Shown: positions 8,085 to 51,637 of the stretch, piece by piece
Layout of the letters: each line of letters begins with the position of its first letter
Position numbering within the stretch: the stretch's first letter is position 1
IMG/VR virus record: IMGVR_UViG_3300013307_000005
Coordinates: 1 to 63,079 of that record
Source: a virus
Direction: 5' to 3' (one strand)
Length of the DNA: 63,079 bases
Program-made: the position numbers and the translations under genes
Notes under the pieces: model-generated
The model's database searches: none
The model's input: the letters and a program-made list of their open reading frames with translations, nothing else
Told to the model about the DNA's origin: nothing

Positions 8085-8121
8085 TGTTAGTGTAAAAATG
8101 TAGATACCCCTGAAGGTCCTA

Positions 8122-8137: not shown

Positions 8138-8166
8138 ATTCTGAAGGCACCGAATCCTGGTGTGAC

Positions 8167-16290: not shown

Positions 16291-16316
16291 GGCGAAATAC
16301 AGTCAAATTCAGGCAA

Positions 16317-16396
16317 AACCTAGGTACCTAGGTTGATTTTCTAGCAGTCAGTCTGATATAACATATATCGGATAATTTACTGCAAACCTAGGTACC
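16317..16396. repeat. Paired inverted-repeat element A
   Basis: GGTACCTAGGTT (16323-16334) and its exact inverse AACCTAGGTACC (16385-16396) enclose 50 bp. The left arm is extended to an 18-bp palindrome, AACCTAGGTACCTAGGTT. An equivalent element with the same arms and the same 50-bp spacing lies at 38038-38111. The core has a TTGATT/TATAAC pair at roughly promoter spacing. Function unknown. Confidence 0.85.
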
Positions 16397-16605
16397 TCCT
16401 TTGACTGACATGGAATTATTGACATAGTTTGCGGAAACGGCACTCCGAGAACCGGTTGCTTTACAAAATTGCAATAAAGAACAACCCAAAAAGAAGACGG
16501 ATAATCATTCCGGGGAATGGGATCTGAAACCCTTAAATCACGGGACAGGGCCCGGGGAAACCATTCTGAATTGAGATTGGGTGAGTCCAATAAGAGAGAA
16601 ATCTC
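16397..16605 (+). other. Long untranslated leader of the capsid gene
   Basis: About 210 bp without a gene between element A and the capsid start. Short inverted repeats occur (ATTCCGGGGAAT near 16509; GAATGG with CCATTC near 16515/16560), so the RNA is probably structured. AGAGAG precedes the capsid ATG. I see no convincing promoter of the phage's CCCTTGACA type. Confidence 0.5.
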
Positions 16606-17871
16606 ATGGCAGTTGCAAACGTAGCACAGGCGATTGGGATCATGCACGAGCAGGTTCGTCCAGAACTTCCTCGTCTTTACCAACAGGACTATACAGCCTG
16701 GGGTAGGATCAAGAGCCGGACGGACATTGTTGTAGTTTCTTCCCGTCCAACTCGCGTTCCTCTCCGTCTGTTGGCCGGCGGTAAATTCCGTGTGGGATCC
16801 CCGGACGGTGGAGATATCGGTCTTGGTTCGTCCTTTGTAACTGATGCAATGACCCTGGTCCCGGTTTACTTCTTCCAGGCGAGTCAGTACACAAAGGCAA
16901 CCGAAATCAACACCAATTCTGATGAGAAGGCGATCGAAGATTACGCCATGCTCACCATGAAAGACGCGATGGAGCAATTCAACGTCTGCATGGAATCCGT
17001 TCTGCAGGGTGATGGTTCCAACACCCTCGACACCGTCGTTTCGCTTTCCAATGCGAACACAACCATTACCTGCAATAACGCCAACCTGTTCACGGATAAC
17101 CAGGACATTGACTTCTGGGCAGCACTTGGTGGAGCTTTCCTCGGCACAGGAACCATTCTGTCCGTTGACGGCCCCAACAACCAGATCAATATGACCACTC
17201 CGGTTCCGGGCGGTGTAGGTGCAGGTACCCTGATGCTTGTCAGCGGATCCGCCGGCATTGCGAACTCGGGGCTCTTCGGAATCAAGTATTGGCAGGTTTC
17301 TTCCAACACTGGTTCTGTGGGCAACTTGGCTCGCTCGGCTTACCCCGGCAAGCTCACCACCCCGCACGTTTCTGGTAACAACCAGGCTTTGACTCCGGCT
17401 AAAGCCCGTGTGTTCCAGGCTCAGATGCAGGCTGCAATGGGAATCGATGCCGCTGAAAAATCAGAGCTCGAGTATCACATGAACACGGATATGATCGCCG
17501 CTTGGGAGAATGTTGGATTGCTGGTTTCTCAGGTAATCCAGAATCAGATCAAGGGTGACAGTTCAGTGGACATGCTTAAGAAGGATGTTCCGCAGACCTT
17601 CGCAGGACGCCCAGTTCTTAAGAGCATCCATGCAACTCCTGGCCGCATCGACGGTCTGGCGTTCAAGCACTGGTTCCGTTGCGAGAACCAGCCGATTGAC
17701 TACTACGAAGTTGGTGGACAGACTCTGTTCCCGACCTACGGAGCCAGCGGCGGTCTCAGCACCAGCACCCTATTCTATCTCTGGACTGGCGTTCAGATCG
17801 GAAATGAGAATGTCCGCGCTGGAGTCTATGGCGACGGCTTCGCAATTCCGACCGGTTACTTCGGTCATTGA
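16606..17871 (+). CDS. Major capsid protein
   Basis: 421 aa, following the scaffold gene and closed by a very strong terminator, as expected for the most abundant virion protein. The helix with AIEDYAMLTMKDAMEQFNV (about 105-125) fits the spine helix of an HK97-type fold, and the long middle insertion (about 145-225, Thr/Asn/Gly-rich) may be a surface domain. Codon choice is noticeably richer in G+C-ending codons than in the early genes, fitting high expression. Confidence 0.85.
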   Translation: MAVANVAQAIGIMHEQVRPELPRLYQQDYTAWGRIKSRTDIVVVSSRPTRVPLRLLAGGKFRVGSPDGGDIGLGSSFVTDAMTLVPVYFFQASQYTKATEINTNSDEKAIEDYAMLTMKDAMEQFNVCMESVLQGDGSNTLDTVVSLSNANTTITCNNANLFTDNQDIDFWAALGGAFLGTGTILSVDGPNNQINMTTPVPGGVGAGTLMLVSGSAGIANSGLFGIKYWQVSSNTGSVGNLARSAYPGKLTTPHVSGNNQALTPAKARVFQAQMQAAMGIDAAEKSELEYHMNTDMIAAWENVGLLVSQVIQNQIKGDSSVDMLKKDVPQTFAGRPVLKSIHATPGRIDGLAFKHWFRCENQPIDYYEVGGQTLFPTYGASGGLSTSTLFYLWTGVQIGNENVRAGVYGDGFAIPTGYFGH

Positions 17872-17891
17872 TATCACTTCCGAGGGAGAAA

Positions 17892-17925
17892 GGGGAGGTG
17901 GCTACGGCTATCTCCCCACTTTTTT
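17892..17925 (+). terminator. Strong terminator with UACG tetraloop
   Basis: An 11-bp stem from GGGGAGGTGGC to GCTATCTCCCC closes a C(UACG)G tetraloop, an extra-stable UNCG type, and is followed by T6. The ATG of the next gene directly abuts the T run. Confidence 0.9.
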
Positions 17926-18144
17926 ATGGATAAATTGGACGAACTCTTAATTTCTCACGACGAATTGCATATTATATGCAAAGCTATGATGAGTATCATT
18001 CTGGAAAGAAATCTACAGGATGATTTTGAGGAAAAATTGAAAGAAGCAAAAGTTACTCCTGGATTTGCTGAAAGGGCGATGCAGATCGAGGAACAGTTTA
18101 CTCAAAGACGTAGAGTTCTCATGGCTACTGGGAGACTTCAATGA
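17926..18144 (+). CDS. Small helical protein
   Basis: 72 aa, acidic and helical. No ribosome-binding site is visible because the U tract of the terminator abuts the ATG; translation may be weak or start on read-through mRNA. The stop overlaps the next ATG. Confidence 0.65.
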   Translation: MDKLDELLISHDELHIICKAMMSIILERNLQDDFEEKLKEAKVTPGFAERAMQIEEQFTQRRRVLMATGRLQ

Positions 18145-18893
18145 GTGTCGAATTAATCGGAGGGAGTTGTCCATCACTGCAGCAACTTCCAATCGGTTCT
18201 CTGAAAGTTATGGGCTGCAACCCATACGGAGAACCGATATTTCGTGTGGTGTGGTCCGAATCTAGATATTACATGGTCGGAGCTGCACATCGTGAGTATG
18301 ACGGGGATCCGGCATCCGATAAAGTTCTTCGGATGAGAGGTAAGGATCCTAATCTCACTAAAGAGCACGTTGGTTATAAATGGCTTCCACTGTATCCCGG
18401 TCCCGGGCGCTGGGTTCTAGAGATGTGGAAAAGCCCAATGGGATTCACCGGCTGTACTAAAGAGCAGTATGAGCTTATGTACAGAGATCCTGTAACTAAT
18501 CTTATCACTTTGGGCCCATATCCAAGTCGGGGAGAGTATGTCCAGTGCTCTGTACAGCTGTCTCCCAGCCCTGGTCGTGAAGAAATCTTGAGAAAGATTG
18601 AACTCATCAAAGCTGGGTGGAACTACTCTTATGCCGAAAAAGAATCTGCTAATCGAGCTGCTTTGGAAAAAAGTGAAAAAGATAAGTTCAACACTTTTAA
18701 GGATATGTTTAAAGATGCTCAACAGGCATTCAACAACAATCCATCCAGCGTCCGTCCGGGCAAAAGGACAAAGGAAAAGTACGAAATCAAAGTCACGGCG
18801 GAAGAAGCCGGTTTAGCTAGAGTTTCCGGATTCAACGCAGGAACACCCCGCACACCAAGGAGACAACATGCCAGGAACCGCAGAACAGCGTGA
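18141..18893 (+). CDS. Unknown 250-aa virion-module protein
   Basis: The N-terminal two thirds is a globular domain rich in Tyr, Trp and Gly-Pro motifs (PLYPGPGRWVLEMW); the last third is basic and probably disordered. ATGA coupling on both sides. Possibly a head-tail or structural accessory; no family recognised. Confidence 0.75.
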   Translation: MSVELIGGSCPSLQQLPIGSLKVMGCNPYGEPIFRVVWSESRYYMVGAAHREYDGDPASDKVLRMRGKDPNLTKEHVGYKWLPLYPGPGRWVLEMWKSPMGFTGCTKEQYELMYRDPVTNLITLGPYPSRGEYVQCSVQLSPSPGREEILRKIELIKAGWNYSYAEKESANRAALEKSEKDKFNTFKDMFKDAQQAFNNNPSSVRPGKRTKEKYEIKVTAEEAGLARVSGFNAGTPRTPRRQHARNRRTA

Positions 18894-19605
18894 GCAAGCA
18901 GTAAGAGAGCTTAAGGCGAAAAATCAGAAGGATGTTTTTGAGCTTCCGCCCGAGCTAAGAGTCATTGGGAAACCAGTGATGATTTTCAACGTAGGCCCCT
19001 TCCGTCATCAGCGGAGTATGGGAAGCTATGGACAATTCCTCATCCATGCTTGTGAAGACGGTGAACCCTATTCCAAAGGCACCGAGATTCCTTACATCAC
19101 CAATGACCCGGTTCATGTCGATATGTTCCAGATGGCTCATCGCCACGATTCGGGAAGGAAATTGGCGAATGACATCATCGGAGTGGGTCAGTTTCATACA
19201 CCTTCCGAAGATTTGACTCAGTGGGGCGTCTTCGTAGCTTCTGGTGATCTTCCTACCGAGGCTGAACTCAAAGAAGCCCGCCGTAAGATGATCAAGACCG
19301 CTGATCGTCTCATTCAGGAAGCTGATACCTATTGGAATCAGGGTCCCAGCGAATATAAGAACGTTACTGAAATGCACCGTTGGGCTGCCAAGATGCGCGG
19401 CCAGATGGACAAGCCTTGGGCTCGTGCAGTTCAGGAAATGAACTCTTGCGACATCTGTGGGTCACAAGTATCACCAAGCGCAGCAATTTGCCCGACCTGC
19501 AAGAATGTCATTGATGAAGAAAGAGTCATCAAAGCAAAGCTTCGTGGTTATGAGCATCTCTGGAAGAAAAAGGCTACCAACGAGGCTCCAGCAGATCTAG
19601 GATAA
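18868..19605 (+). CDS. Protein with C-terminal zinc ribbon
   Basis: 245 aa. An alpha/beta body is followed by a zinc ribbon CDICG ... CPTCK at about 194-213. It overlaps the preceding gene by 26 bp. Located between capsid and secreted fibre genes. Role unknown. Confidence 0.8.
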   Translation: MPGTAEQREQAVRELKAKNQKDVFELPPELRVIGKPVMIFNVGPFRHQRSMGSYGQFLIHACEDGEPYSKGTEIPYITNDPVHVDMFQMAHRHDSGRKLANDIIGVGQFHTPSEDLTQWGVFVASGDLPTEAELKEARRKMIKTADRLIQEADTYWNQGPSEYKNVTEMHRWAAKMRGQMDKPWARAVQEMNSCDICGSQVSPSAAICPTCKNVIDEERVIKAKLRGYEHLWKKKATNEAPADLG

Positions 19606-19609
19606 ATCA

Positions 19610-22504
19610 ATGAGAAAACTGGCTGTTGCTATCCTGTTAGTTGTCGCTGTATCAGCTGCCCTTGGGCAGAATGCGTATCGTGTTGATAATCCTGTACAAA
19701 CTATCAATACAAACGTTCCCGTCACGAACAATATGTACCCAGTTCTGGCGATTCCTAATGCTGGAGTGAACATCTGTAATGTTCCAGCAAATGGAGTTCC
19801 TTGCACCAACAAAGCAACAACTTACACGGATAGCACCGCCGGGACAACCTGTTCTACGTCCACTCAATTCACTCGTCCCAATTCCAATGTTTGTGTAGCC
19901 AACGCCGATTCCACTGGCAACTGGGGAGGCTGGTTCGCTACCGGGAACTACCAATACACCATCACTTTGCCCAATGGGAGAAGCTACGGACCATATGACC
20001 TATCTGTGGGAACTAACGGATCATCCACAGGACTGCCGGTAAACAATCCAGCATTCACTGGGAAGATGACCGGACCATCTATTCTAGCCAGCATCAACAA
20101 CATGGTTAATGTGATGGCTCCACCCTACAACGCTAAAGGTGATTGTGTTACTGATGATACAGCTGCCTTTGCTGCCGCTCAAGGTGTAGCTGAAACCTTC
20201 TCAGTGGGAAACAGCTTACCAGCAGCTCTAGTTATACCGAAACCTCCTGGCGGCTGCTATATAATCAACGATTTTGTTTGGCACGGAGTTAGTTTAGAAG
20301 GACTCGCTCCAGCTGCCATAGGACCAGCATCTCCAAAAACTTACCCGGTTACTCTTAAAAACTCTCCCGGCGCTCACGATATCTTAAAGATTAATGATCC
20401 AAACTTTGTAGCTGGACAGAGTAGAATATTTCCCGGGTGGTCAATTCGCAACATCGGATTCATCGTTGATAACTCTATAGGTGGTGTGAGACCCCATCGT
20501 TGGCCTGGACGCTGGTTTGATGATGGTGCAATGACCAATGGTAGCGCGGTCTTTACAAGTTCCACTAGAGCTGCCAATATTACATGTGCTGATGTTGGTC
20601 AAGCTATCCAAGTTAATGGGGCAGGTCCAGGCGGTGCAAATCTAGTAACCACCATTCAGAGCGTTTCACCTTGCTGGTACTCGACTAGTACTCCAACCTG
20701 GACCACAATTACTCTAGCAGCTTCCGCTTCTACTACCGTTTCCAATGCCCATACCTATATCTCGGTTCTTGGGCTTCCTGTCACGAAGACTTTAGGGAAT
20801 GCTGCAATCGCACAAGATCTGTATGACGGAAATCCGGCTCATTGGATAGGAACTTCTCTTACCGGAAACTATGGTAAGATGGAAAATGTTTCCTTCGTAA
20901 CTACCAACGGATCTAACTACACCAATCCGAACAATTATCCAGTTGGAGTCTTCACTCAGGGTATTCCTTGGCTTTACGGTCTCGATGTTAAGAACTTCCT
21001 ATTCAATGGCTTCTATTTTGGAGTAGCCCAAACCGGATCCGAGCTCAATTCCTTCCTTCAATCTAGCTCAGGTGATTACGAAACCTGGATGCACGGACTG
21101 TTCTTTTTCAACACGTCCCCGTGGATATCCTATAACGGTTTTTCCCAGCATCTAGAAGACAATCAGATAGCCGGAGATGGTGGACCAATCATTCTTGGAT
21201 TGGGCAACCAAGCTTTCGACGCCCCCATTGGATGGACTATCCAGAATATGGGTATTGAGTCCCCAAATGTAGTTTCGCCCTGGGGTTGGGTCATTACTGG
21301 AGGTTTTCACACAGTAGCAGTCAGTTTGACTTCCAATGCTCCCAGTCAATTCGCTTACTTCGAAGCAAGTACTTCTAGCTGCAGATGCGGCGGGAACAAT
21401 GTCTTCTTTGATGGTCAGAATAACCGTATAGATGATGGTGGCGGCCCTCCACTGAACGTTGTGGATAGAGGATTTGGAAATGAGATCCTCTATGCCTATA
21501 ATGCAAATCCAATCAATGGTCTGCCATCAGCGCATGACGTGAATATGACAGTCTATAAAGGAAGTAATCAACTTCTCAATAGATTCACTTCTGACTTCAT
21601 CCGGGATGGAAACCCAGGTAATCCGTACAACAATGATGATTTATTTTTGTGGCCTCAGGACATAGTCTTCGGTACTCCACCATGGAATTCGGTGGTAGTT
21701 TCCGACACGACTTCTCCAACCGGGAACTATGCCAAGTTTACTTCCGGTCAGAGGTACAACATCTACGCTCCTTACACTCCGTCTAGAGGAAATTCTAATA
21801 GTCTAGTGGTTGGTGACAACCTTCCAACTACTGGAATAACGGTATATCTTTCTGCCAAATGTCCTGTAGCTGGAACGTTTACCCCACAGGTGCAGACTTT
21901 CGGTGGTACCGTAGTAGCTCCAGTTCTTAGCTGCACAACAAGCTATCAGCCTTACACCATCAACGTCCCATGGGCTGTGGGTGACTCCGGGAAACCATTC
22001 TACTTTGGAGCTGCAATCGGCAGCAATGAATTCCGTGTGGCATGGTTCGATATCGTTCCCTTTAAGACTGCCATCAATGGAATTGCTTTGCCCATAACTG
22101 GTGGTGCTCAATTCACGACCGGCCCCCAGAGTGGGACTACAACCAATAACATCGTCACTTTCGCTGACACGAAGGGAACTATCAAGGATAGTGGAATCAG
22201 TATTGCTTCTCAGATTGCCAATATCCAAATCACCGTACCGTCCTTCGTTTTCACTTCTGCAGTATGCTGGGGGCCAGCTTCCAACACTACCCCCGGAACT
22301 GCGGTTATGACGGGTATTTCAACTTCTACAGTTCTTACCGCCGGTTACTCCAGCAATCCAAGTGCTATTAACGGATGGGGAACTACAGGTGGATTGACTT
22401 TTCAGATGTGGCCTACAGCTAATCAGGTGAACTGGTTGGTTTGTAATCCAAGCGGTGCTTCGTTCACGAGCGGGTCCATAACATTCAACGTAGGGGCGAA
22501 ATAG
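19610..22504 (+). CDS. Secreted pectate-lyase-like beta-helix protein (depolymerase/tail-spike type)
   Basis: 964 aa. Sec signal peptide (MRKLAVAILLVVAVSAALG before Q). AKGDCVTDDTAAFAAAQG at about 175-195 is the hallmark opening of pectate-lyase-type right-handed beta-helices common in tail spikes. A long Asn/Gly/Thr-rich helix follows, then a C-terminal beta-sandwich region that could trimerise or bind sugar. Normal tail spikes are made without a signal peptide, so this protein may be released to digest capsule or matrix, or be displayed on the surface. Confidence 0.8.
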   Translation: MRKLAVAILLVVAVSAALGQNAYRVDNPVQTINTNVPVTNNMYPVLAIPNAGVNICNVPANGVPCTNKATTYTDSTAGTTCSTSTQFTRPNSNVCVANADSTGNWGGWFATGNYQYTITLPNGRSYGPYDLSVGTNGSSTGLPVNNPAFTGKMTGPSILASINNMVNVMAPPYNAKGDCVTDDTAAFAAAQGVAETFSVGNSLPAALVIPKPPGGCYIINDFVWHGVSLEGLAPAAIGPASPKTYPVTLKNSPGAHDILKINDPNFVAGQSRIFPGWSIRNIGFIVDNSIGGVRPHRWPGRWFDDGAMTNGSAVFTSSTRAANITCADVGQAIQVNGAGPGGANLVTTIQSVSPCWYSTSTPTWTTITLAASASTTVSNAHTYISVLGLPVTKTLGNAAIAQDLYDGNPAHWIGTSLTGNYGKMENVSFVTTNGSNYTNPNNYPVGVFTQGIPWLYGLDVKNFLFNGFYFGVAQTGSELNSFLQSSSGDYETWMHGLFFFNTSPWISYNGFSQHLEDNQIAGDGGPIILGLGNQAFDAPIGWTIQNMGIESPNVVSPWGWVITGGFHTVAVSLTSNAPSQFAYFEASTSSCRCGGNNVFFDGQNNRIDDGGGPPLNVVDRGFGNEILYAYNANPINGLPSAHDVNMTVYKGSNQLLNRFTSDFIRDGNPGNPYNNDDLFLWPQDIVFGTPPWNSVVVSDTTSPTGNYAKFTSGQRYNIYAPYTPSRGNSNSLVVGDNLPTTGITVYLSAKCPVAGTFTPQVQTFGGTVVAPVLSCTTSYQPYTINVPWAVGDSGKPFYFGAAIGSNEFRVAWFDIVPFKTAINGIALPITGGAQFTTGPQSGTTTNNIVTFADTKGTIKDSGISIASQIANIQITVPSFVFTSAVCWGPASNTTPGTAVMTGISTSTVLTAGYSSNPSAINGWGTTGGLTFQMWPTANQVNWLVCNPSGASFTSGSITFNVGAK

Positions 22505-24072
22505 TGAAGAAGTGGGTTTTACTGCTAAGTTTGACTAGTCCTTTATTCGCTCAGTACAGTACTACTTCTTGTAATTTCGGAGAGACTGGAACATGTAGAC
22601 TAGTTGCTAGCTGTAATTCAACTGATATAAATACTACCATTGCTGCTTCTTCCAATGGCGGGTTAGGATACATTGCTCCCAATCACTTTGATGGAGACGG
22701 AGTTTATGTGCCAGCTGGAAGTTGCAGCTGGACTTCTCCGGTTAACTGGACTAACAAGAACATCAACCTTATTGGGAATGGTGGAATTCTCCCGAGTAAT
22801 GCCACTAAGGGTAATCTAACATCCAGTAACACCGTGATTACTCACAATACCTCCAATGCTTTTCAAGTGAATGCATCCAACAATGGGTTCACCGCAGCTA
22901 CTTTTCGGATTGCAGGATTCACTTTCTCAGGGAGTAATCCATCTAATCAGCTACTCAACATCAATAACAGCAATCCGAACATGACTGCTGAGAATGGATT
23001 CTTTCGAGTAGATCACATAACCTATCTTTACACTCATTCTGGAGATGTTTTTGTAAACTACGGACCTACCTACGGTGTATTTGATCACCTGGATGGAACT
23101 ACGCCGCAGAATCATTTCCTTACCGCAATGTTCTACAACTTTGAAGCTCCCTTTACCACCATACTTCAAGGTGAAACTCTTGCTAGAACGGGTGCTAGAT
23201 TTGGAACTCAGAATTTCATCTTCATCGAAGATTCCAACTTCAATTGCTCAGGAAGCTTTGGTACTGGAGCTATAAGTGATTCTTCCAGTGGAATTCAGAG
23301 ATTGGTTTTCCGCCATAACAGCCTAACAGGGTCCTGTTTCCACTATCAACACTGGACCAGAAGTAACGAATGGGATGGTGGATACTCTGAATACTACAAC
23401 AACGTGTATCAATGTACGGATGCCAGCTGTGCGAGTGGGAGTTATCCTTGCAGATTCAACGCAGGAACCGGGATCTTCCATGATAATCAGATTACAGGAT
23501 ATCAGACCAACTCCTGCTTAATAGATGAGGCTCGTGGCTGTGGGGCTCAGACATCGGCAGTCGCTGGAGAATGTAAAGGAGCACCCCCATCAAATTCACA
23601 GATAGATGTTAATGGTGGTGATCCAAATGCCCCAGGATGGCCATGCGCAGGTCAAGTGGGTTCCGGTTGTACTTCAGGAACTTGTACTAGATCCCAGATG
23701 ACTTCAGTTCCTTACATTATGTACAATAACGGTGCTCAAGCCGGATGTGCTAATGGAGGAAGTTGCACCAATTCCACAACATTCTCTGTGGATGGACCTC
23801 CTGGTGGTGGAAGTTGTACAAGAACCATGTCCAACTATCTGATGAGTACTCCACACACAGCTTCTGGTGGATTAAACGGAGCTATTGACTACAGTTCTGG
23901 AGCTGCTAAACCCTCAAGTGTTGGAATCTACAGCGATATCGCCGGATACACTCCATTTCAGTATCCGTATCCAACTACTTTGATTAGTGGGGGTGGAGGG
24001 ACCGTTTTTCCAACAAGTCTAGGTCCCACTCCTATATCTTTTGTTATTAAGAAACGCCGGGGAGCCACGTAG
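22504..24072 (+). CDS. Secreted Cys-rich beta-helix protein
   Basis: 522 aa from a GTG that overlaps the previous TAG, with GTAGGGG upstream. Signal peptide MKKWVLLLSLTSPLFA before Q. The mature protein is Asn/Ser/Thr/Gly-rich beta-helix-like sequence with more than 20 Cys, plausible only where disulfides form, so the periplasm or outside. It ends with a basic SFVIKKRRGAT. Likely an adhesin or glycan-active partner of the preceding protein. Confidence 0.75.
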   Translation: MKKWVLLLSLTSPLFAQYSTTSCNFGETGTCRLVASCNSTDINTTIAASSNGGLGYIAPNHFDGDGVYVPAGSCSWTSPVNWTNKNINLIGNGGILPSNATKGNLTSSNTVITHNTSNAFQVNASNNGFTAATFRIAGFTFSGSNPSNQLLNINNSNPNMTAENGFFRVDHITYLYTHSGDVFVNYGPTYGVFDHLDGTTPQNHFLTAMFYNFEAPFTTILQGETLARTGARFGTQNFIFIEDSNFNCSGSFGTGAISDSSSGIQRLVFRHNSLTGSCFHYQHWTRSNEWDGGYSEYYNNVYQCTDASCASGSYPCRFNAGTGIFHDNQITGYQTNSCLIDEARGCGAQTSAVAGECKGAPPSNSQIDVNGGDPNAPGWPCAGQVGSGCTSGTCTRSQMTSVPYIMYNNGAQAGCANGGSCTNSTTFSVDGPPGGGSCTRTMSNYLMSTPHTASGGLNGAIDYSSGAAKPSSVGIYSDIAGYTPFQYPYPTTLISGGGGTVFPTSLGPTPISFVIKKRRGAT

Positions 24073-24074
24073 AG

Positions 24075-24269
24075 ATGTCGGTGGTCGAGGATGTTAGAAC
24101 ACTCAAACGAATCGTTATCGAAGGTAACGGTGAGGAGTCTCTAGTGAGCAAAGTCGCAGTTCTCGAACAGAAGGTTGGCGAGATGAGATGGGGTATTAGA
24201 CTTCTGATAGGCATGGCCTTAGGAATTCTAGTTCCCGTTGTCAAAGCCTGGATTCAAGGAAAGCTATGA
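24075..24269 (+). CDS. Small coiled-coil membrane protein, XhlA/holin-like
   Basis: 64 aa. An N-terminal heptad region is followed by one transmembrane segment (IRLLIGMALGILVPVVKAW) and a short basic end, the layout of XhlA-type lysis accessories. It lies two genes before the lysozyme-like gene, so a holin or lysis-control role is likely. Confidence 0.65.
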   Translation: MSVVEDVRTLKRIVIEGNGEESLVSKVAVLEQKVGEMRWGIRLLIGMALGILVPVVKAWIQGKL

Positions 24270-25282: not shown

Positions 25283-25291
25283 GGGATTAGG

Positions 25292-25783
25292 ATGAATTTC
25301 AGTAAAGAACAGATCCTAGAGGCCTGCCGAACCTACGGCCCTAGCTTGCTCGTAGTTTCAGGCATTTCGGGCCCTAGGGTCATGGCCGCACTGGCCTCTA
25401 ACGAATCATCCTACGGCCTTAATTGCGGACCTAGGCATGAGCCAGCATACGATGTAAATGGGGCAATATACAAGTCTAACCCGCTCCAGAGAAACTTAGT
25501 TAAAGAATTTGGTTCTGCAGCAGCTTGCAGCTACGGACCTTGGCAGATGATGTATATCAACTTCAAGGGCGCCCTTCCAAGCGAGTTGCAGAATGATCTC
25601 ACTCTTCTTGCACAGGAATTTGTTCACTGGTTCAACACATATGTGATTAAGATTCGACATGCCGAGACCGTTGAGCAAATCGGTCAGGTATGGAATCTGG
25701 GTCACATCACAAAAGAACCGCCGCCAGGTGTTCTACGCTACACTCAAGATTTGCAGAAGGCGTATGATTCTGTGGAGCTCTAA
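25292..25783 (+). CDS. Lysozyme-like endolysin (SLT fold)
   Basis: 163 aa. AALASNESSYG (catalytic Glu about residue 38) followed by YGPWQMM is the signature of soluble lytic transglycosylase/goose-lysozyme enzymes that cut peptidoglycan. No signal peptide, so it would need a holin or act from the virion. The neighbouring small membrane protein supports a lysis role. Confidence 0.8.
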   Translation: MNFSKEQILEACRTYGPSLLVVSGISGPRVMAALASNESSYGLNCGPRHEPAYDVNGAIYKSNPLQRNLVKEFGSAAACSYGPWQMMYINFKGALPSELQNDLTLLAQEFVHWFNTYVIKIRHAETVEQIGQVWNLGHITKEPPPGVLRYTQDLQKAYDSVEL

Positions 25784-26556: not shown

Positions 26557-26565
26557 GGAGCAGAC

Positions 26566-29900: not shown

Positions 29901-30581
29901 GCTCCTAACTTGGTTTATGTGATGGATTATCGAGAAATGGACACAGCTGGAGAGATTGCAGGTAAGTCTCCAATCCATATCTCATTCACTGGAAAGATGG
30001 TCTGCAGTGATCTTTCCCGGAAATGGACTAGATGGAACATGTTCATCAATCGAGGGGATATTCTAAACATTCCTGGAATTGGAATTCAATTCTCATTCGC
30101 TGGTGGAAATGGTATAGCACCGGCCACAGGCAGCGGTGGATTTTCATCCGTCTACTGGTTAGCTCCTGACGCAATGCAGGATGATGACTTTGGATTGATC
30201 GTTCCGTATTACACAACCTACTTCTTTGTTAATCACGAGATGGAGATGAACATCCAGGTAGGTGTACACCGTAAACTCTTCAAAAGGTACTCGGTGTATG
30301 TTCAAGGGTTTGGTCAGTTGGTTGTTACTCCATACGGTGATACGCTAACTAATCCTTGGCCTGTAATAAACAATCTTCCATTATCCGACAATCAACTGTT
30401 TGACTTAGGTGATGGCTTGTCAGTTATTGCCGAGAGAGCTGCTTTCAAGATCGGTAGCATACCTCCACCATTCTTCAGCGTACCTCTGAATGAGTCTTTG
30501 CACAATTCGTTTACTCTTAACAAGTTCACAGTGACCATATCTCAGGAGCCTGTAGCTCCGGTCAGATTTGGAGCAATCTAA
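26961..30581 (+). CDS. Giant tail (nozzle/tubular) protein
   Basis: 1206 aa. The opening (LFGGLVTEMSPSDLPEGVSP, then FFPGGISSRTGLTK) is typical of podovirus tail-tube/nozzle proteins of the P22 gp10 or T7 gp12 type. At about 270-430 there are three imperfect repeats of the pattern H-N/G-L-x3-x-V-x-I-x-G (HNLQVGFRAQISG, HGLLPENVIKITG, HNLKAGTSVKITG), each followed by a Gly-rich hairpin, indicating stacked small beta domains. The later part contains W-rich beta structure. Confidence 0.75.
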   Translation: MAENVLQPVEVPVPLQLFGGLVTEMSPSDLPEGVSPDCQDITFFPGGISSRTGLTKWLRFLPNNVSVTYQKTYVTPQNLIRNLFLLSDGSFWVQAAETGVVTNILTVTPGSYASSVSAFGKELIVFHDTQKGTDIPRIYDGTFIDRASQNGPALPPNVSNTSFPTVNMVAAGAPFVSVINTINAADIIHYGNPPNISFYYSAVIINFVTPLPGTITVGAVVSVAGNSQAIFNGVYYSITQIIDSNTVKCAAYFPYPPAIPTGNGGTVTIGSNSTLVRSNNHVTCVTAAPHNLQVGFRAQISGINDAPVGGGISSININNEQNPGIATVTTASAHGLLPENVIKITGVADALVGGAISTVARRAQIVTVVTTAPHNLKAGTSVKITGTVDLNFTGQFIVLNIIDAVTFTYSQIDSDATSTGGAVHMVWPVSDNAIIPNNYTVISTPTPTTFTISLFYSDGTWTGGVITFPWSGTFYVTQVIDDVTFVYLQYGPNASTNTVGTVTPTSQIAPGARGVVVLFETRQGYITAPSPPTQIITPGSQYLSISDIPIGTDNVVRRIIAFTGADGANYFYIPVGASVNGIQVSTSTVINDNVTTSILVDFADPTLFDSIAIDIPGNNLFEMGVIGPCLGVANYASRAGWFGLRNSIQNFLNLGFDAGYISSLGLGTPPGWTVINPGGILTNLGDFGYAWTIGGASGPNGGMITQPAYADVYNVPILQPNTQYSIDFKAVAQRSGGLPIGGGKLVFEFYSPTSGVLATASMQITNLITPFPVIGFFPGFFTITMDNKTPGVIPSDTVLRIYGNNITNGWAVTFDDMEFYPTINPTLRQFKWSYINLPDSVDNETSLLGAASDDTFIQAWFVYRDSLLFLTQYGLYETSDLAGYEPYNWSVRQVAHDCGAVGPLACTSGENFSAWFSAPSSQLPVGRGLYLYTGGSVNKISQEIQPDFDQINQAAQTRTWVTNDPITRRVYVGIPTDTWTAPNLVYVMDYREMDTAGEIAGKSPIHISFTGKMVCSDLSRKWTRWNMFINRGDILNIPGIGIQFSFAGGNGIAPATGSGGFSSVYWLAPDAMQDDDFGLIVPYYTTYFFVNHEMEMNIQVGVHRKLFKRYSVYVQGFGQLVVTPYGDTLTNPWPVINNLPLSDNQLFDLGDGLSVIAERAAFKIGSIPPPFFSVPLNESLHNSFTLNKFTVTISQEPVAPVRFGAI

Positions 30582-31129
30582 TGCCACTTGACTACCGCAA
30601 TCGTCAAATGATTTCCGATAAGTTCCCAGAGGTGGGAATGGCTTTGGATGATATGATCGATTACATCCAAAGTGTGATGACTCAGACCAACTCCAGTCCT
30701 CAAGGTCAGTCGGATCCACCGCCTTCTCCAGCATCGTTGAAGGTAACGGCAGCTCATGGTATCTTTGATGCTGCCATCACCGATAATAACCCAGTGAATC
30801 GTGGAATCAACTACTTCTTAGAGTATTCAGACAACCCACAGTTCAATGCTCCAACTACCATTGATCTTGGTCAGTCGAGGAACTTCCGGGGACATCTCGG
30901 GAATCAGAACCTTTACTGGAGAGCTCACTCTTCGTATCCTACGGGTCCAAGATCTCCACATGTGTATCACGGTGGGAGTCCAGTGAATCCGTCTCCAGTC
31001 GCCGGTGGGGGAGTCTTGACAGGTCCTACACCGCTGCCCAGTCAGGGAAGTGGAACCAGCAATGGTGCTTCAGGCAGTGATGGAGCTTTTGGTAACTTCC
31101 CGTATAGAAAGATCAGACCAACTTCATGA
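30581..31129 (+). CDS. Virion protein with fibronectin-III-like domain
   Basis: 182 aa. A helical N-terminus of about 45 residues, then a beta domain (SLKVTAAHGIFDAAI ... FLEYSDNPQF ... NLYWRAHSSY) with the strand pattern of fibronectin type III, then a Gly/Ser/Pro tail. Such domains decorate tails and fibres. Confidence 0.65.
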   Translation: MPLDYRNRQMISDKFPEVGMALDDMIDYIQSVMTQTNSSPQGQSDPPPSPASLKVTAAHGIFDAAITDNNPVNRGINYFLEYSDNPQFNAPTTIDLGQSRNFRGHLGNQNLYWRAHSSYPTGPRSPHVYHGGSPVNPSPVAGGGVLTGPTPLPSQGSGTSNGASGSDGAFGNFPYRKIRPTS

Positions 31130-31524
31130 TAGTTAGAATGCTTCGTGAATCCGACGTACCTAGGCTCAAAAGAATCTATAAGAAGATGGGAATTCCACTT
31201 CCGTTCCCTAATCTTAAAGAATTCTTTCCCATGCCCGTCATCGTCGATGAACAAAATCGAGTGGTGATGGGTGTGGGTATGATTCCCACAGTGGAAGTAT
31301 GGCTATTCGTTGATAAGAAGTGGGAAACCCCGGGTATGAGGCAAGAGGCTTTCAGGGTTCTTCACGAGTGGGTTAGGAAAGATCTTAGATCTAGAGGCAT
31401 TGTTCAAGCGCACGCCTTTCTTCCTCCAGATATGGAAAAACAGTTTGGAAGAAGATTAACAAAACTATTCGGCTGGATAAAAGAAAGCTGGCCTTGCTTT
31501 TTCCGGAGGACCGATCATGTCTAG
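31126..31524 (+). CDS. GNAT acetyltransferase-like protein in virion module
   Basis: 132 aa. The N-terminus (MIVRMLRESDVPRLKRIYKK) and the V-x-G-x-G-M strand followed by an alpha/beta end fit a GNAT-type fold. Similar proteins lie among internal virion genes of several podoviruses. Whether it acetylates anything or is structural cannot be told. Confidence 0.65.
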   Translation: MIVRMLRESDVPRLKRIYKKMGIPLPFPNLKEFFPMPVIVDEQNRVVMGVGMIPTVEVWLFVDKKWETPGMRQEAFRVLHEWVRKDLRSRGIVQAHAFLPPDMEKQFGRRLTKLFGWIKESWPCFFRRTDHV

Positions 31525-32086
31525 GAACGCCGCAAGTCAGGCTCAACAAACTTATAGAATGGGCCGTTCGCTGGAAAATCAATCCTTAGCGAACTCTAAT
31601 GCCCTTTACGATCAGCTGGAGCCAACGTTCCAGAACGAAGCGGTTAATCCCCAAGGCTTTAATCCTAAGGATATGGCCGATATGACCACTGGTGCCATGC
31701 AGAGTTCTGGTGGAGCTCTTGGCGCCGTGACTGGGAAAGCAAATCAGTACGCCGCAGCTAACAGAAATTCTGGTAGTTTCACTCCTGTCCTCGATGAGGC
31801 ATCGAGAGCTGCCAGCCGTAATCTTTCCAACACGAATCTTGACATCAAAAAGAGCAATGCCGATCTTAAAGAAAGTCAACGACAGGCTGGAATCAAGGGA
31901 CTCTCTGGTCTTCAATCCGAGCAAAATGCCGATGTCCTTGGCTCCCTCGGTTTGATGAACCAATCTACTGACGCCATGACCAAGGCAAGTCCTGGATGGT
32001 TCCAAAACTTCACTAGCCTGCTTCAGTCTTTGCAAGGTGCCGGTGCTAGCAAGGGTGCAGATGGCAGCTGGGCATTTGGGGCGTAA
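31517..32086 (+). CDS. Internal virion protein, Ala/Ser/Gln-rich
   Basis: 189 aa, helical, rich in Ala, Ser, Asn and Gln, no Cys. This is the composition of podovirus ejection proteins, and it is followed by two much larger proteins of similar style, as in the three-protein ejection sets of T7- and P22-like phages. Confidence 0.65.
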   Translation: MSRNAASQAQQTYRMGRSLENQSLANSNALYDQLEPTFQNEAVNPQGFNPKDMADMTTGAMQSSGGALGAVTGKANQYAAANRNSGSFTPVLDEASRAASRNLSNTNLDIKKSNADLKESQRQAGIKGLSGLQSEQNADVLGSLGLMNQSTDAMTKASPGWFQNFTSLLQSLQGAGASKGADGSWAFGA

Positions 32087-32088
32087 AG

Positions 32089-34017
32089 ATGATAGATCAA
32101 ACAGTTCCTCAAGATCCTACGGTTCTTAGCGATCCACTTCAGCAGAAGAAAATCGCTGAGAATGTCCTTTCCCAGCTGGGGCTTCACCCTAATCAACAGG
32201 GTGCTAAAAGTCTTCTAGATGCCCATTTCTCCGGACCCACAGCTCATCCGGATATTGCAAGCATCGTGTCCCAAAATCCAGCTCCTCAGCCTCAGCAAGA
32301 TCAGGGTACACCATTCAGTGGTCCTAACGGACTGAGTGGAACTTATCATGGTGACCCCAAGCTGTTCCCGGAGATTCACGATCAGAGTGGAAATAAGGTC
32401 CCAGTTCAGATGGGTGCTCCACCTGCGGCTGGCACTACTACTCCAGAAGTCCAAGCTCAGCCACCTGTACAAAAGTCTGCCGCTGTAGCGCCTTCAATTC
32501 CCGCTCCTGTAACTGGCGATCCTAAGATTGCTGCACTTCAGACGAACACAGCCAATACCACTGGTAATGCACAGCATGAGCTTGATAGACTGATCGACAC
32601 CGGCTCCGGAGTCAGTCAGATTCAGAATCCATTCCTGAGGGGCCTGGCTCGTGTGGGTGACTTGGGAGCAGAACTCTTTGTTCCTCGATTTGAGAAAGAT
32701 ATTCCCGGAACTGAAGGCCATCACTCTCAGCTTATTGAGAATCAAGAACATCTGATTAATGCCGGAGTTAAGCAAGGCCAAGAGGAAGCTCTTACCCAGC
32801 ATGAGAATGTTGAAACTCAGAAAGCCATTAACAATCCTAACGAACTAGCTGAGTGGATGAAGGAAAATCCTGGAGTTCCGATCAATAAATACTGGGAGCA
32901 GAAAGCCAATGCCCAGATGGGGAAACTAACTCCAGATCAGCAAGAACTTAGATTCCTTACTACACCCAGAGAACAGGGTGGAGAGGGTCTGACTGTTGAT
33001 GAGGCCTTCAAAACACTGAACGACAGAAAGATGGCCGGGAAACCTAAAACGGCTGCCCAGTTGAAGAGCGATTTCCAAGGCATCCTACAGAAAATGAGCC
33101 AAGGTCAGCCTCTTGATCCCGCTTTGATGAGTGATGAAAAAGCTCTAGTTCAGGCCATCGGCACATCTCCAAATCTTACGGATGAGGAAAAACAGAAAGC
33201 TTTCTCCTATGTAGTTTCTTCGAACACTCCAGCTTCAGCCGCTTATTCCGCGAACAAGAGAGCTAATTCGATGCTTCAACTTAGGCTATTCAATGGAATC
33301 GACACCTCAACCGGTCAGCTGGCCTTCGTAACTCCTGAGATGAATCAGCAAAACCCAGGTCGATACATTCCTGCGAGTCAGGGTCAGCAGTCCATGTCTA
33401 AAGAAGGACTGTTCAGGGATATTCACTTCAATATCGATCAGGTTAAAGAAACAATCAACAATCTTCACACCGACTTCGATGCAACTACAAGGGCTCAGCT
33501 TGCTCTTGTTCTCAAAAATCCGCATCCTGAGAGTGCTATGTCCAGCTGGCTGCAGGGTTCGGCTGCCCAAACTCTGTCGATGGACCAGATCGACTACGTT
33601 ACAGCTCTAGCATCTTTGATGGAGAATGCCATGTCCCTTCGGTCTGTGGGTCAGATGGGACAAGGATCCGATGAACTTCGCTCAGCCATTATGAGAGCTA
33701 TTCCGGGTCCAGGAACTCCAAGCAAGGATTACGCTCTACGTCAGCTTGAACTTCTGGTTGGTACTGTCTCCAGAATCGAAGGCGGCGTTCCGAAGAGCGG
33801 AGTTACTCCACCAAATCACGAGCCACCTAAGACTACTGAGCAAATTCACAACGAGAGAACTGGCGAGAAGCAGAAAACTGGCCAGACTATCACCAAGCAA
33901 GCAGCGATAGATGAGCTAAAGAGAGTTAATGAAGCTCGCCAAGCAAAAGGTCTTCAGCCTTACACCGAGGAAGATCTAAACAAAAGCCTTAAAGAGAATG
34001 GGATAACGGTGCAATAA
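32089..34017 (+). CDS. Internal virion/ejection protein
   Basis: 642 aa. Helical with Pro/Gln-rich linkers; a basic segment NPFLRGLARVGDLGAELFVPRF near residue 185 may be membrane-active. The C-terminal part is charged helix. Likely ejected with the DNA. The stop overlaps the next ATG. Confidence 0.65.
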   Translation: MIDQTVPQDPTVLSDPLQQKKIAENVLSQLGLHPNQQGAKSLLDAHFSGPTAHPDIASIVSQNPAPQPQQDQGTPFSGPNGLSGTYHGDPKLFPEIHDQSGNKVPVQMGAPPAAGTTTPEVQAQPPVQKSAAVAPSIPAPVTGDPKIAALQTNTANTTGNAQHELDRLIDTGSGVSQIQNPFLRGLARVGDLGAELFVPRFEKDIPGTEGHHSQLIENQEHLINAGVKQGQEEALTQHENVETQKAINNPNELAEWMKENPGVPINKYWEQKANAQMGKLTPDQQELRFLTTPREQGGEGLTVDEAFKTLNDRKMAGKPKTAAQLKSDFQGILQKMSQGQPLDPALMSDEKALVQAIGTSPNLTDEEKQKAFSYVVSSNTPASAAYSANKRANSMLQLRLFNGIDTSTGQLAFVTPEMNQQNPGRYIPASQGQQSMSKEGLFRDIHFNIDQVKETINNLHTDFDATTRAQLALVLKNPHPESAMSSWLQGSAAQTLSMDQIDYVTALASLMENAMSLRSVGQMGQGSDELRSAIMRAIPGPGTPSKDYALRQLELLVGTVSRIEGGVPKSGVTPPNHEPPKTTEQIHNERTGEKQKTGQTITKQAAIDELKRVNEARQAKGLQPYTEEDLNKSLKENGITVQ

Positions 34018-36458
34018 TGGCTCAAGAACCCACAGAGTTCAACTGGAATCAGGTAGGTCCTAAGAAACCTCCGGCTGCCTCAGTACAGCCACAGATTGAG
34101 CAGCCATTGGCTTCTGCTAGATCTGGCAATACGACTGTGCATGATGTTTCACCAGAACCGAAACAGTCTACTCCGGCGACTCCAGAGCCTACCTTCGATT
34201 GGGGCAGAGTTTATGCCAAGAAGCCTCAGGCCACCATTGGTGCAGAACAGCATCCCATCGAGAATCGACTTAATCAGCTTGCAAACGATATAAAGTTCGG
34301 ACCACCGGCTAATGATGACCGAATTCCTGAGAGGCTGATGAGGTTTCTCGGGTATCAGGGAACCCAGAAGGGTCAGTCTGGTAATCCCGGTGGTATGATG
34401 CCCATCGTCGGTGCAGTTGAAGGTGTACCGGAGTTGATCCATGCAACTTCTAGAGTTCCCCAAATCCAGTCGAAGAAAGATTTCACGTCGGTTTTTAATG
34501 AAGGAGCTGGTGGAGCTTTTAAGACTGTCGCTGGTGCTGCTGGTGCTGTCAGCCCCCTTAGTGTTGTTCCTGGCATGGCTCGTGCACTTCCAGCTTATGC
34601 TGCTGGATCTACAGGAGCAAAACTATTCGGAGCCGATCCTGACACCCAACAGATGGTGGGAAACATCACAGCCGCAGGATTACCCGGCGAAAAAGCAGCT
34701 GGAGAAAAAGTTGGACCATTGATCGAGCAACACGCCCCTGCTCTGGGCAAAGCGACTGGCTACGTAGCTGCTGCAGGCAAAGCCGCTCACGACGTCCTAG
34801 GTGGCAAAGGGTTTAATCCTCTTGACCTGATTTTCGCTTCTCCGCTGGGTACTAAACCCGCAGAAGCTGCTTTTCGTACGGCCGGCAGTTTAATGGGCAA
34901 CAGTGAACCACTCATTATGAATGGTCCTGAGAAGCCTGCTGCACCAGCTCCGGCACCCAAACAACTGGGCCCAGGAAATATAGAACTTAATCCGCCGGCT
35001 GATACTGGCAAAATGGAAGTTCCCAGAGCACAAGCCCAAGTTGTCCGTGGTAAAGGTGGAAAGATGACGAAGCAGTTCACCACGTCACCGGACAGCGGGA
35101 AAGTACAGTTTGGCACTGAGAAACCACTGATTCAGACCGACTTTGGTGAACCAAAAGCTCCACCCAATGCCGCTGGAACTGTTGAACCTGTGGGCAAGAC
35201 TCCGGAAGCTCAAGCAAAGCCGGCAACCAAGCTAGATGAGATCAATTCCACTGTCGATCAGATTGTCCAAAATCTTCAGCAAGCAATCGACATGAATAGC
35301 CACGAAGAAGATCAGGCCAGTCTAGATCGTAAAGCCGGGTATGAAAAAGAACTGAAGGAGTGGCAGGATTTCAAGAACTCAGTCAATCAGCCAGGATACA
35401 GCAATCCTCATATCGACTTGACAGCTCCAGCTGAGGTTAAACCAGCCAGTGAGCCAATCAATGAATCAAGTGCAGTGAAGGGACTTGACCAACCTGCACC
35501 TACGGAAGAAACTGAACCCTTGACAAACCGCCGTAGTACTGATATAATCGATAATGGTATGCCAAAAAAAACTTCCGAGATAGGACCTAAAGATCTCGAG
35601 GAAAAGGGTCTTCAGCAAGATCTCCGCAATAAATTCGATCGTGATCAAGAAGCTGCCGATGAGCATGGCCTCAAGGCGATGTATAAAGGAATGAAGCCTG
35701 GCTATAATCCCGACGTAGAGTCCCCACAACCTTTTTCAGAACACCCGTTCGGAAAGTTGATAGATAATGGTGAAGAAGATTACGAACCGCCGGAAGGCGC
35801 CAGTGCCTCTCTTAAAGGCCCGGGCAGCACTCAGAGTTTTATCAACCCTTTCACTGGTGGACACGAAGCAGAACCTGATTTCTCATCTGACGAGCTTGAT
35901 CGCCTCTACGGAAACGACGTCCAAAAAGAGCTTATCAACAACAAGGAATCGGAACTCATCAGTCAAGAGGTCCCTAAAGAAGTAGAAGACGCCATGCTTC
36001 ACATTGCTTTAAACACCGATACTCGAGATTTCGACGGTGTAGCCGATCTTTTTCAGGAAAAGGGCTTGGATCCATTTAATGGAGAAGACGTGATAAAGTT
36101 GGCGCAGTCTCTCGGATGGAAACATCCGGGTTCTGGGAATTGGCCTCTTATCGAAGCTATGGGGGGACAAGATATTCCTGAAAGTAAGAAGATCCCAGAA
36201 GGGGAAGATTTTCATCACTTCGAACCTGACGACGAAATAGAGCACGAGCTTAGTTTTAAAGATGCCGATGACGAGAGTTTAGCCTGGGAATTTCTAAAAA
36301 CTAAGGGATTTACTCCAGAACAGTTGGCCCATATGCCGGTTCGTGAACTCGTCGATACAGCTAAACAACACGGTTTCCAATTTAGTTCTGAATATCCTAG
36401 ATCCAAGTGGACTAAAGAGATGATTGATCATCCCCAAAACCCACCTGAGGAGAAGTAA
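34017..36458 (+). CDS. Large internal virion protein with an internal promoter
   Basis: 813 aa. The N-terminal part is Pro/Ala-rich with an Ala/Gly hydrophobic stretch at about 160-210 (AGGAFKTVAGAAGAVS), compatible with membrane insertion during ejection. Near residue 502 the frame reads through a perfect phage promoter (35520-35548), followed by an in-frame Met at residue 515 starting MPKKTSEIGPK. The C-terminal 300 residues are acidic and helical and may also be made as a separate protein. A fusion of two genes is possible. Confidence 0.75.
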   Translation: MAQEPTEFNWNQVGPKKPPAASVQPQIEQPLASARSGNTTVHDVSPEPKQSTPATPEPTFDWGRVYAKKPQATIGAEQHPIENRLNQLANDIKFGPPANDDRIPERLMRFLGYQGTQKGQSGNPGGMMPIVGAVEGVPELIHATSRVPQIQSKKDFTSVFNEGAGGAFKTVAGAAGAVSPLSVVPGMARALPAYAAGSTGAKLFGADPDTQQMVGNITAAGLPGEKAAGEKVGPLIEQHAPALGKATGYVAAAGKAAHDVLGGKGFNPLDLIFASPLGTKPAEAAFRTAGSLMGNSEPLIMNGPEKPAAPAPAPKQLGPGNIELNPPADTGKMEVPRAQAQVVRGKGGKMTKQFTTSPDSGKVQFGTEKPLIQTDFGEPKAPPNAAGTVEPVGKTPEAQAKPATKLDEINSTVDQIVQNLQQAIDMNSHEEDQASLDRKAGYEKELKEWQDFKNSVNQPGYSNPHIDLTAPAEVKPASEPINESSAVKGLDQPAPTEETEPLTNRRSTDIIDNGMPKKTSEIGPKDLEEKGLQQDLRNKFDRDQEAADEHGLKAMYKGMKPGYNPDVESPQPFSEHPFGKLIDNGEEDYEPPEGASASLKGPGSTQSFINPFTGGHEAEPDFSSDELDRLYGNDVQKELINNKESELISQEVPKEVEDAMLHIALNTDTRDFDGVADLFQEKGLDPFNGEDVIKLAQSLGWKHPGSGNWPLIEAMGGQDIPESKKIPEGEDFHHFEPDDEIEHELSFKDADDESLAWEFLKTKGFTPEQLAHMPVRELVDTAKQHGFQFSSEYPRSKWTKEMIDHPQNPPEEK
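35520..35548 (+). promoter_or_regulatory. Internal promoter within the virion gene
   Basis: GAACCC-TTGACA (35520-35525), exactly 17 bp, TATAAT (35543-35548): a better match to consensus than several intergenic promoters. The in-frame ATG at 35559 is 10 nt beyond the -10. An out-of-frame ATG at 35554 would start only nine codons. Confidence 0.75.
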
Positions 36459-36833
36459 ATGCCAGCATTCCAAACACTAACCCTTCCGCCCGCACTCTAT
36501 CAGGGGGATTCCTACCTGGTGTGGAATGCGGAGTCCGGCCTTGCCGGCACCAAGAGTGAACGTGTTGCTTTTGGTGTTAACCCAGGAGCTGCCGGTCAGG
36601 CTTGCTCGATCGAGATTACTTTTGGTGGAGCACCTGGAGTTTTCGAGATCGACTTCGAGACTGCCGACACTGACGTTGCCGGTGATTACGTTCAAAAGAC
36701 GATTATCAACGGTGTAAATGCGAACAATGCCGTCCGTGTAGAGATCGATCCCTTCGTAGCTAACTTCGGGAGACTCAACATGGTTGCTCTAGCCAACGCC
36801 GTATCTTGCACTGCCAAGATCACAGCAAAGTAG
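36459..36833 (+). CDS. Small beta-rich virion protein
   Basis: 124 aa, immediately after the preceding stop. Ala/Val/Gly-rich beta protein with ITFGGAPGVFEIDFETAD. Possibly a decoration or fibre-associated protein. Not recognised. Confidence 0.7.
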   Translation: MPAFQTLTLPPALYQGDSYLVWNAESGLAGTKSERVAFGVNPGAAGQACSIEITFGGAPGVFEIDFETADTDVAGDYVQKTIINGVNANNAVRVEIDPFVANFGRLNMVALANAVSCTAKITAK

Positions 36834-36838
36834 GTACG

Positions 36839-37378
36839 ATGAACGTCGGTGGATTCATTAAGCAAGTAGCTCCGTGGATCGGTGCTGCAGCGACGGGCAA
36901 CATCCCCGCTCTTGTTGCTCTAGCTGCTCAGACCGTCTCCAAGGTGACTGGCGGAAAGGTGGATGCCAGTCCTGACTCGATTAGTGCAGCTATTGCGGGG
37001 GCTTCCCCAGAGCAGTTGCTGGCACTAAAACAGGCTGACAACGAACTTGCCGAGAAGATGCAGCAAATGGGATTCCAGCATCTTGAGGATCTTGAAAAGA
37101 TTGCTGCTGACGATCGGGAGGGCGCAAGACAACGACAGATCGCTATCAAAGATCACGTTCCCGCAATGCTAGCATTCACTATCACTGTGGGATTCTTCGG
37201 TCTTCTAGCCGCAATGCTTAAGGTCGCTATCCCACAGGATGCCAAAGAAATCATCAACATCATGGTTGGTTCGTTAGGCACAGCTTGGATCAGTGTTGTA
37301 AGTTATTACTTCGGATCCAGCGCAGCACATACCGCGCAGTTGGCTGCACAAAGTGCTAACTCACACGCTATCAACTAG
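36839..37378 (+). CDS. Holin-like membrane protein
   Basis: 179 aa. SPEQLLALKQADNE and DDREGARQRQ, followed by two membrane segments (MLAFTITVGFFGLLAAMLKVA and MVGSLGTAWISVVSYYFGS), match a common phage membrane family often annotated as a putative holin. The ATG at 36839 lies six bases after the previous stop; longer starts would overlap that gene. Confidence 0.75.
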   Translation: MNVGGFIKQVAPWIGAAATGNIPALVALAAQTVSKVTGGKVDASPDSISAAIAGASPEQLLALKQADNELAEKMQQMGFQHLEDLEKIAADDREGARQRQIAIKDHVPAMLAFTITVGFFGLLAAMLKVAIPQDAKEIINIMVGSLGTAWISVVSYYFGSSAAHTAQLAAQSANSHAIN

Positions 37379-37395
37379 GGCACTGGAGGTTTCGG

Positions 37396-37686
37396 GTGCA
37401 ATTACAAACCGCGCTAAGTTCAATCAACTTGGCTCTAACCGTTGTCCTCATCTTAATGTTGAGGAAAAGGAGCAGCAAAATCATGGCCGATCTTACAGGT
37501 CTTACCCAAGCAGTCAATGACACCGAGTCGGTTGAGGAATCAGCCATTGTTCTCATCGAAGGTCTTGCAGGAAAACTCGCGGATGCGGGAACTGATCCTG
37601 TCAAACTGCAGGCTCTTCAGGATTCGCTGAACTCAGAGAAAGAAAAGCTTGCTGCGGCGATTTCAGCCAACACTCCGGCAGCCTAG
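37396..37686 (+). CDS. Small membrane protein with possible second start
   Basis: 96 aa from a GTG with GGAGG 7 nt upstream, giving an N-terminal membrane segment (INLALTVVLILMLRK). An in-frame ATG at 37483, with AAGGAG upstream, would give a soluble 67-aa product of a widespread phage type ending in ISANTPAA. Two products, as with holin/antiholin pairs, are possible. Confidence 0.7.
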   Translation: MQLQTALSSINLALTVVLILMLRKRSSKIMADLTGLTQAVNDTESVEESAIVLIEGLAGKLADAGTDPVKLQALQDSLNSEKEKLAAAISANTPAA

Positions 37687-37694
37687 GAGATAAC

Positions 37695-37844
37695 ATGTTC
37701 TATGCAATCGTTGCAGTGGTGGCTTTCGTGGCCGGTGGGGCGGTTACTCACTTCTACGAAGGCCGAGTGATCAAACAGGTTTATAACCTAGAAGATAGGT
37801 TAAAAGCTTGGATTGATACTAGGCTTTCGACTCCTGGGAGATAG
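37695..37844 (+). CDS. 49-aa membrane protein
   Basis: AGGAGA lies 6 nt before the ATG. The N-terminal membrane segment MFYAIVAVVAFVAGGAVTHF is followed by a charged helix. Last rightward gene of the late unit. Possibly a spanin-like or lysis accessory protein. Confidence 0.65.
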   Translation: MFYAIVAVVAFVAGGAVTHFYEGRVIKQVYNLEDRLKAWIDTRLSTPGR

Positions 37845-38120
37845 ACTGCTGCCCCTAGAATAACCAGGACACTTACCTATTGCGGGAGGTAAGGTAGCCA
37901 AAGTCGAGGCAGCCAGGCCCTCACGGATTTCGCCCGATCTGTGGGGGCCTCGAAGTGTTCAAAGCTGGCTCTAGTATAAGTCATGCCAGGTATGCAGTCA
38001 AATGTATGACATGCAGGCATAAACCGGATAAAACTAGGGTACCTAGGTTGATTTGTGTAAGGCCCGTTATATGTCATATACCAGCGAATATTTCATGTTA
38101 ACCTAGGTACCTTATTGGTC
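37845..38120. other. Structured intergenic region between convergent gene blocks
   Basis: No gene. It contains a perfect 7-bp hairpin (CTTACCT/AGGTAAG, 37872-37893), other GC-rich complementary segments, and element B at 38038-38111. As the late genes and the leftward genes meet here, some of this should act as a bidirectional terminator, though no clear T tract is visible. Confidence 0.5.
38038..38111. repeat. Paired inverted-repeat element B
   Basis: GGTACCTAGGTT (38038-38049) and AACCTAGGTACC (38100-38111) flank exactly 50 bp, as in element A at 16323-16396. The cores share about half their bases, mainly GATTT at the left end and an AT-rich ATATxxCATATA-like middle. Conserved arms and spacing with a diverged core point to a protein-binding or recombination site. 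Confidence 0.85.
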
Positions 38121-51611: not shown

Positions 51612-51637
51612 CGTCAAATTACCCGTATATACCGGCA

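Follow-up and report, generated by a model that had tools for sequence, protein, structure and literature searches.

Two matched palindromic-box elements in the late region of an uncultured phage genome, one of them a candidate regulated promoter of the capsid unit

RinA/ArpU-type late activators are small HTH proteins that govern phage late operons. In phi29, a small phage protein, p4, makes the switch to late transcription by binding inverted-repeat sites at promoters A2c-A2b-A3 (PMC3100819). In phage Mu, the activator C binds as a dimer to late promoters whose own elements are poor, on the -35 or upstream of it (PMC4461284). Cluster A mycobacteriophages carry stoperators, more than 20 asymmetric 13-mers recognized by a monomeric immunity repressor (PMC9283540).

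The stretch of DNA analyzed here (the window; 63,079 nucleotides, IMG/VR record IMGVR_UViG_3300013307_000005) is a complete genome with a direct terminal repeat of 123 bp, one copy of which lies at 62957-63079. As an earlier note on this sequence described, it carries two matched inverted-repeat elements, E1 (16323-16396) and E2 (38038-38111), with identical 12-bp arms around a spacer of exactly 50 bp in each. Like the p4 sites, inverted repeats that surround early and late promoters and in some cases overlap a -35, E1 and E2 are built of inverted repeats; the p4 site is 5'-CTTTTT-15 bp-AAAATG-3' and occurs four times in one region (PMC3100819), whereas the window has the box ACCTAGGT in pairs at two places 22 kb apart. 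Mu C would resemble the putative E1 promoter in that an activator site lies near the -35 of a poor late promoter; regulator and site are different, and the part of the Mu account available describes no downstream site or operon-end paired element (PMC4461284). Stoperators are likewise short, repeated, intergenic sites whose orientation is tied to transcription, and they are proposed to stop initiation and elongation (PMC9283540), but the comparison fails on site number and symmetry: instead of many dispersed asymmetric sites the whole genome has just two inverted pairs, four arms in all, with palindromic boxes, and neither an immunity repressor nor an integrase was recognized among the proteins searched. 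By analogy, the element most likely resembles the p4 and Mu C late switches in its working; we claim membership in neither. A literature search found no direct precedent for a phage late promoter with flanking operators. The reading that we tentatively prefer, giving it somewhat under an even chance on the sequence comparisons below, is that the capsid unit has in E1 a regulated late promoter flanked by operators and that E2 reuses the box pair at the late/early boundary.

Each arm includes the 8-bp palindromic box ACCTAGGT, five of whose six occurrences in the genome fall within E1 and E2. There is one perfect box per arm, except on the left side of E1, where the arm GGTACCTAGGTT (16323-16334) falls within a longer perfect palindrome, AACCTAGGTACCTAGGTT (16317-16334; 18 bp), made of two abutting boxes (16318-16325 and 16326-16333). 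The E1 core (16335-16384, plus strand) contains an inner dyad at about 16351-16373 and is followed by the right arm AACCTAGGTACC (16385-16396) with a single perfect box at 16386-16393. In E2, the arms GGTACCTAGGTT (38038-38049) and AACCTAGGTACC (38100-38111) enclose a core at 38050-38099 (plus strand), which agrees with that of E1 at 24 of 50 positions; the divergence of the cores claimed earlier is thus borne out. So is the absence of a third copy, which is meaningful given the completeness of the genome: there are just two occurrences of the exact pattern, and a profile of the element adds none. Dinucleotide shuffles of the genome (200 in all, spacers of 20-120) contained a mean of 0.52 12-bp inverted-repeat matches, and two inverted repeats with a common arm and spacing arose in none of them. 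The arm 12-mer, at up to two mismatches, was seen 10 times against 2.7 expected.

Uncultured relatives were found via the capsid, the DNA polymerase and a neighboring gene. No close isolate of this phage group was found among the phage records searched; the capsid protein and element DNA had no match among annotated phages, nor had the DNA polymerase and element pattern among genome contigs. In L038, a relative whose proteins mostly share 55-75% identity with those of the window, the E2 position is taken by a complete element, GGTACCTAGGTTGAATTT...TTTTATGTTAACCTAGG, of the form GGTACCTAGGTT-N50-AACCTAGG, its CCTAGG boxes 60 bp apart as in both window copies. A second phage is represented by L006, L008 and L009 on the capsid side and by L025 on the convergent side, which are probably one species. 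Its E1 and E2 positions both align with the window without gaps, and TTGAAT (TGGAAT in L025, at E2) stands 52 bp from the right AAC(C)TAGG box; the left CCTAGG is missing, and in L006, L008 and L009 the right box is doubled, 10 bp apart. All copies share one polarity. Among 2.9 million viral contigs of IMG/VR, the pattern CCTAGGTT-N50-AACCTAGG is confined to this phage group, and the exact long pattern is found only in contigs of the window species and in L005. The L005 match, a 65-bp palindrome (8116-8180) that lies at the edge of its contig and contains GGTACCTAGGTT/AACCTAGGTACC, was set aside, as its flanks are unrelated and it may be a fold-back artifact.

A hidden Markov model built from the three non-window copies placed E1 (E=1.3e-6) and E2 (E=1.9e-6) as the two best matches in the genome, both on the plus strand, and held-out tests recovered L038 (1.7e-8), L006 (6.7e-7) and, weakly, L025 (0.008). 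Once the boxes were masked the remaining similarity was not significant, indicating that most of the homology signal resides in the boxes and their spacing; this weighs against the promoter reading. The element is absent from the distant relatives L027/G008, L040 and L022. The expectation that the 12-N50-12 pattern would hold its place in relatives was borne out in part: no relative that has the element carries it at a random position, but it is missing before the capsid gene of a close relative, L007 (capsid 89-90% identical). Judged from the relatives' sequences, the element is real and conserved. It also shows the repeated palindromic box, with conserved spacing and place, that is expected of an operator pair, and of the three ideas in the earlier note, paired protein-binding sites are the best supported, since relatives retain box sequence and spacing at these two genome positions.

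E1 sits in the gap 16291-16605, upstream of the gene for the major capsid protein (16606-17871, plus strand; 421 aa). It does not directly adjoin that gene but ends about 210 bp before the start at 16606. Of the capsid-to-lysis module named in the earlier note, the capsid is only weakly identified (as a major head protein by PHROG, E=4e-4, together with relatives), and the lysis genes were not confirmed by Pfam. Within E1, on the plus strand, lies a weak promoter-like sequence (16333-16362): TTGATT at 16333-16338, an 18-bp spacer, and TATAAC at 16357-16362 after TGA. The E1 layout of L006, L008 and L009 matches that of the window (TTGAAT-N18-TATTAC in L006, with the same extended TG), so that both E1 copies read TTGAWT-N18-TATWAC plus extended TG. 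The phage carries about 20 strong sigma-70-type promoters, mostly TTGACA, 17-18 bp, TATAAT, and the N18 spacing of the E1 copies supports the promoter reading. Taken alone, the E1 score is moderate (rank 45 of 126,086 scored positions) and tells against this reading; the main support is therefore the conserved layout. The top-scoring promoter of the genome, TTGACA-N17-TATAAT with TG at 35520-35548 (plus strand), is inside a long gene (34017-36458) and perhaps serves the last late genes.

Downstream of E1 is a structured capsid leader of about 177 nt (16429-16605, plus strand), conserved in sequence and structure, with 28 pairs of which 7 show compensatory change across three sequences. It is retained in L006, L007, L009, L017, L018 and L021, has no Rfam match and, within the loci searched, occurs only before the capsid gene. 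Since L007 keeps the leader and lacks E1, E1 is dispensable in L007, and this too speaks against the preferred reading.

The boxes, their fixed spacing and polarity, the syntenic positions in relatives and the promoter-like layout of the E1 copies can be read directly from the alignments; from them we infer promoter activity, a binding protein, and activation as opposed to repression. E1 would be a host sigma-70-type, regulated late promoter of the capsid operon, with transcription predicted to start near 16369, and a dimeric phage or host DNA-binding protein would occupy the 8-bp palindromic boxes ACCTAGGT. The two upstream boxes, centered at about -39.5 and -47.5, would overlap and precede the -35, and protein bound there could help polymerase onto a promoter whose -35 is poor and whose -10 is extended. 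The third box, at about +21.5, might hold or time the polymerase. At E2, where the late and early units converge, the same protein bound to the box pair would serve as a roadblock or a boundary, with no useful transcript started.

An RNA function of the same sequences was weighed against this. E1 and E2 fold far better than shuffled sequences (z -6.4 and -4.5), and three of the five cores, those of E1, L006 E1 and L038 E2, beat shuffles on the plus strand (0/500, 0/500 and p=0.012), which makes an RNA function a serious rival. The same three cores fold better on the plus than on the minus strand, via G-U pairs, and their inner dyads are superfluous to a promoter, a point against the preferred reading. 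In read-through mRNA, hairpins at E1 and E2 could be processed by an RNase III-like activity or could protect the message, so that both the 5' and the 3' end of the capsid-to-late mRNA would be fixed; the common polarity of the two copies relative to the late genes and the differing stem sequences of the inner hairpins among copies would suit such a role. The E2 cores of the window and of L025 have no inner hairpin above chance, though, and neither element matched an Rfam covariance model. Of the 12 outer pairs, about half are disrupted in one or both of L006 and L025, and few of these changes are compensated; the right box survives. The "regulatory RNA element" proposed earlier thus has the three folding cores in its favor and, against it, an outer stem that is broken without compensation in one phage group. 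Loss of an arm without compensation, a self-palindromic box and base-exact spacing in aligned copies, unusual for an RNA loop, favor DNA sites over an obligatory RNA stem, and the loss of the left box alone in L006, L008 and L009 is as expected of separate DNA sites. We regard the RNA explanation as less likely than the promoter, with perhaps a one-in-four chance.

E2 lies after the last late gene (about 37685-37844, plus strand, position read by eye), past the last plus-strand stop at about 37844 as the earlier note had it, and occupies the gap between the converging late genes and the minus-strand replication genes, of which the nearest ends at 38121. Directly before it, a non-coding 3' region of the late operon (37845-38037, plus strand) contains several hairpins; the inverted repeats of this region differ in sequence from those of its L025 and L038 counterparts, and the regions have an AATAACC(A/G)GGAC-like start in common. 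E2 of the window keeps TTGATT (38048-38053) with no good -10, its best plus-strand scores being 4-5, and L025 E2 has no in-register promoter; both observations count against the promoter reading. E2 of L038 has TTGAAT-N15-TATAAT. A minus-strand promoter-like site beside E2 (37973-38001) was discarded because neither L025 nor L038 clearly shows one at that place.

A promoterless E2 would also fit sites that are operators or roadblocks only, where a repressor, as at stoperators, would halt polymerase during elongation, within the late operon in the case of E1 and between the converging operons in that of E2. The box pairs are intergenic and of one polarity, there are few sites, each tied to its position, and E2 of the window is not accompanied by a good intrinsic terminator. 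Set against these are the promoter-like layout conserved in both E1 copies, the strong terminator-like hairpin with T run that L025 has besides its E2, and the repressor and integrase searches mentioned above; we consider this explanation unlikely. E1 and E2 were rejected as intrinsic terminators themselves, since a GC-rich stem with short loop and T run was not found and the hits were weak and within the arms, and E2 as a terminator substitute of the window was dropped because L025 has both. The other convergent gene pair differs from the E2 boundary in having a bidirectional, terminator-like hairpin with an A-tract and a T-tract (51637-51690).

Two further explanations were judged from genome position. 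A replication or segregation site bound by a phage protein, for fork arrest or initiation, would agree with E2 lying at a drop in cumulative GC skew where transcription converges, and with AT-rich dyad centers between binding boxes; the skew tracks gene strand, E1 is away from its turning point, and the iteron-like region near 47-250 is the better origin candidate, making this very unlikely. That candidate origin (window 1-250) comprises an AT-rich dyad, inverted TCTGTCG-type repeats (60-90/217-247), a GC-skew minimum and a divergent region. The proposal that the elements serve to exchange the capsid-late module by recombination, or form a MITE-like mobile element, draws on copies that bracket the module and have terminal inverted repeats. 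It is not supported: recombination sites have a short spacer and a cognate recombinase, the spacer here is 50 bp and variable, the copies keep fixed syntenic positions in relatives with cores sharing about half their bases, no recombinase or transposase appeared among the proteins searched, and target duplication was not seen. We give it next to no weight.

For the preferred reading, the candidate binder of the boxes, a guess from co-occurrence, is a 66-aa sigma-70 region-4-like HTH protein (P0001; 51670-51870, minus strand; Pfam Sigma70_r4, 25.6 bits at a cut-off of 24.1). It is present in all three element-bearing phage groups, at 68% and 56% identity, which supports that reading, and its gene adjoins a helicase gene in relatives. 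It also occurs in G008, where no element was recognized, and this argues the other way. The predicted fold is a sigma-region-4/LuxR-like HTH, with weak Foldseek E-values. In being a small HTH protein it resembles RinA/ArpU activators; it differs in having matched sigma-region-4 models, with no RinA or ArpU model among its matches. A further speculation, to which we attach very little probability, is that this one protein binds the same-facing pairs at both ends of the late unit, switches on the start at E1 and closes off the end at E2, and perhaps bridges the 22 kb between them into a loop of late genes.

For this uncultured phage group the analysis defines a concrete, testable control element of the late genes, and adds to it a candidate regulator and a structured capsid leader that Rfam lacks. 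Should the same boxes act both where the late unit begins and where it ends, this would be an unusual way of defining a transcription unit. The early region of the window has two more perfect 13-bp inverted repeats, at 3542-3597 and 7635-7698, with spacers of 30 and 38 bp.
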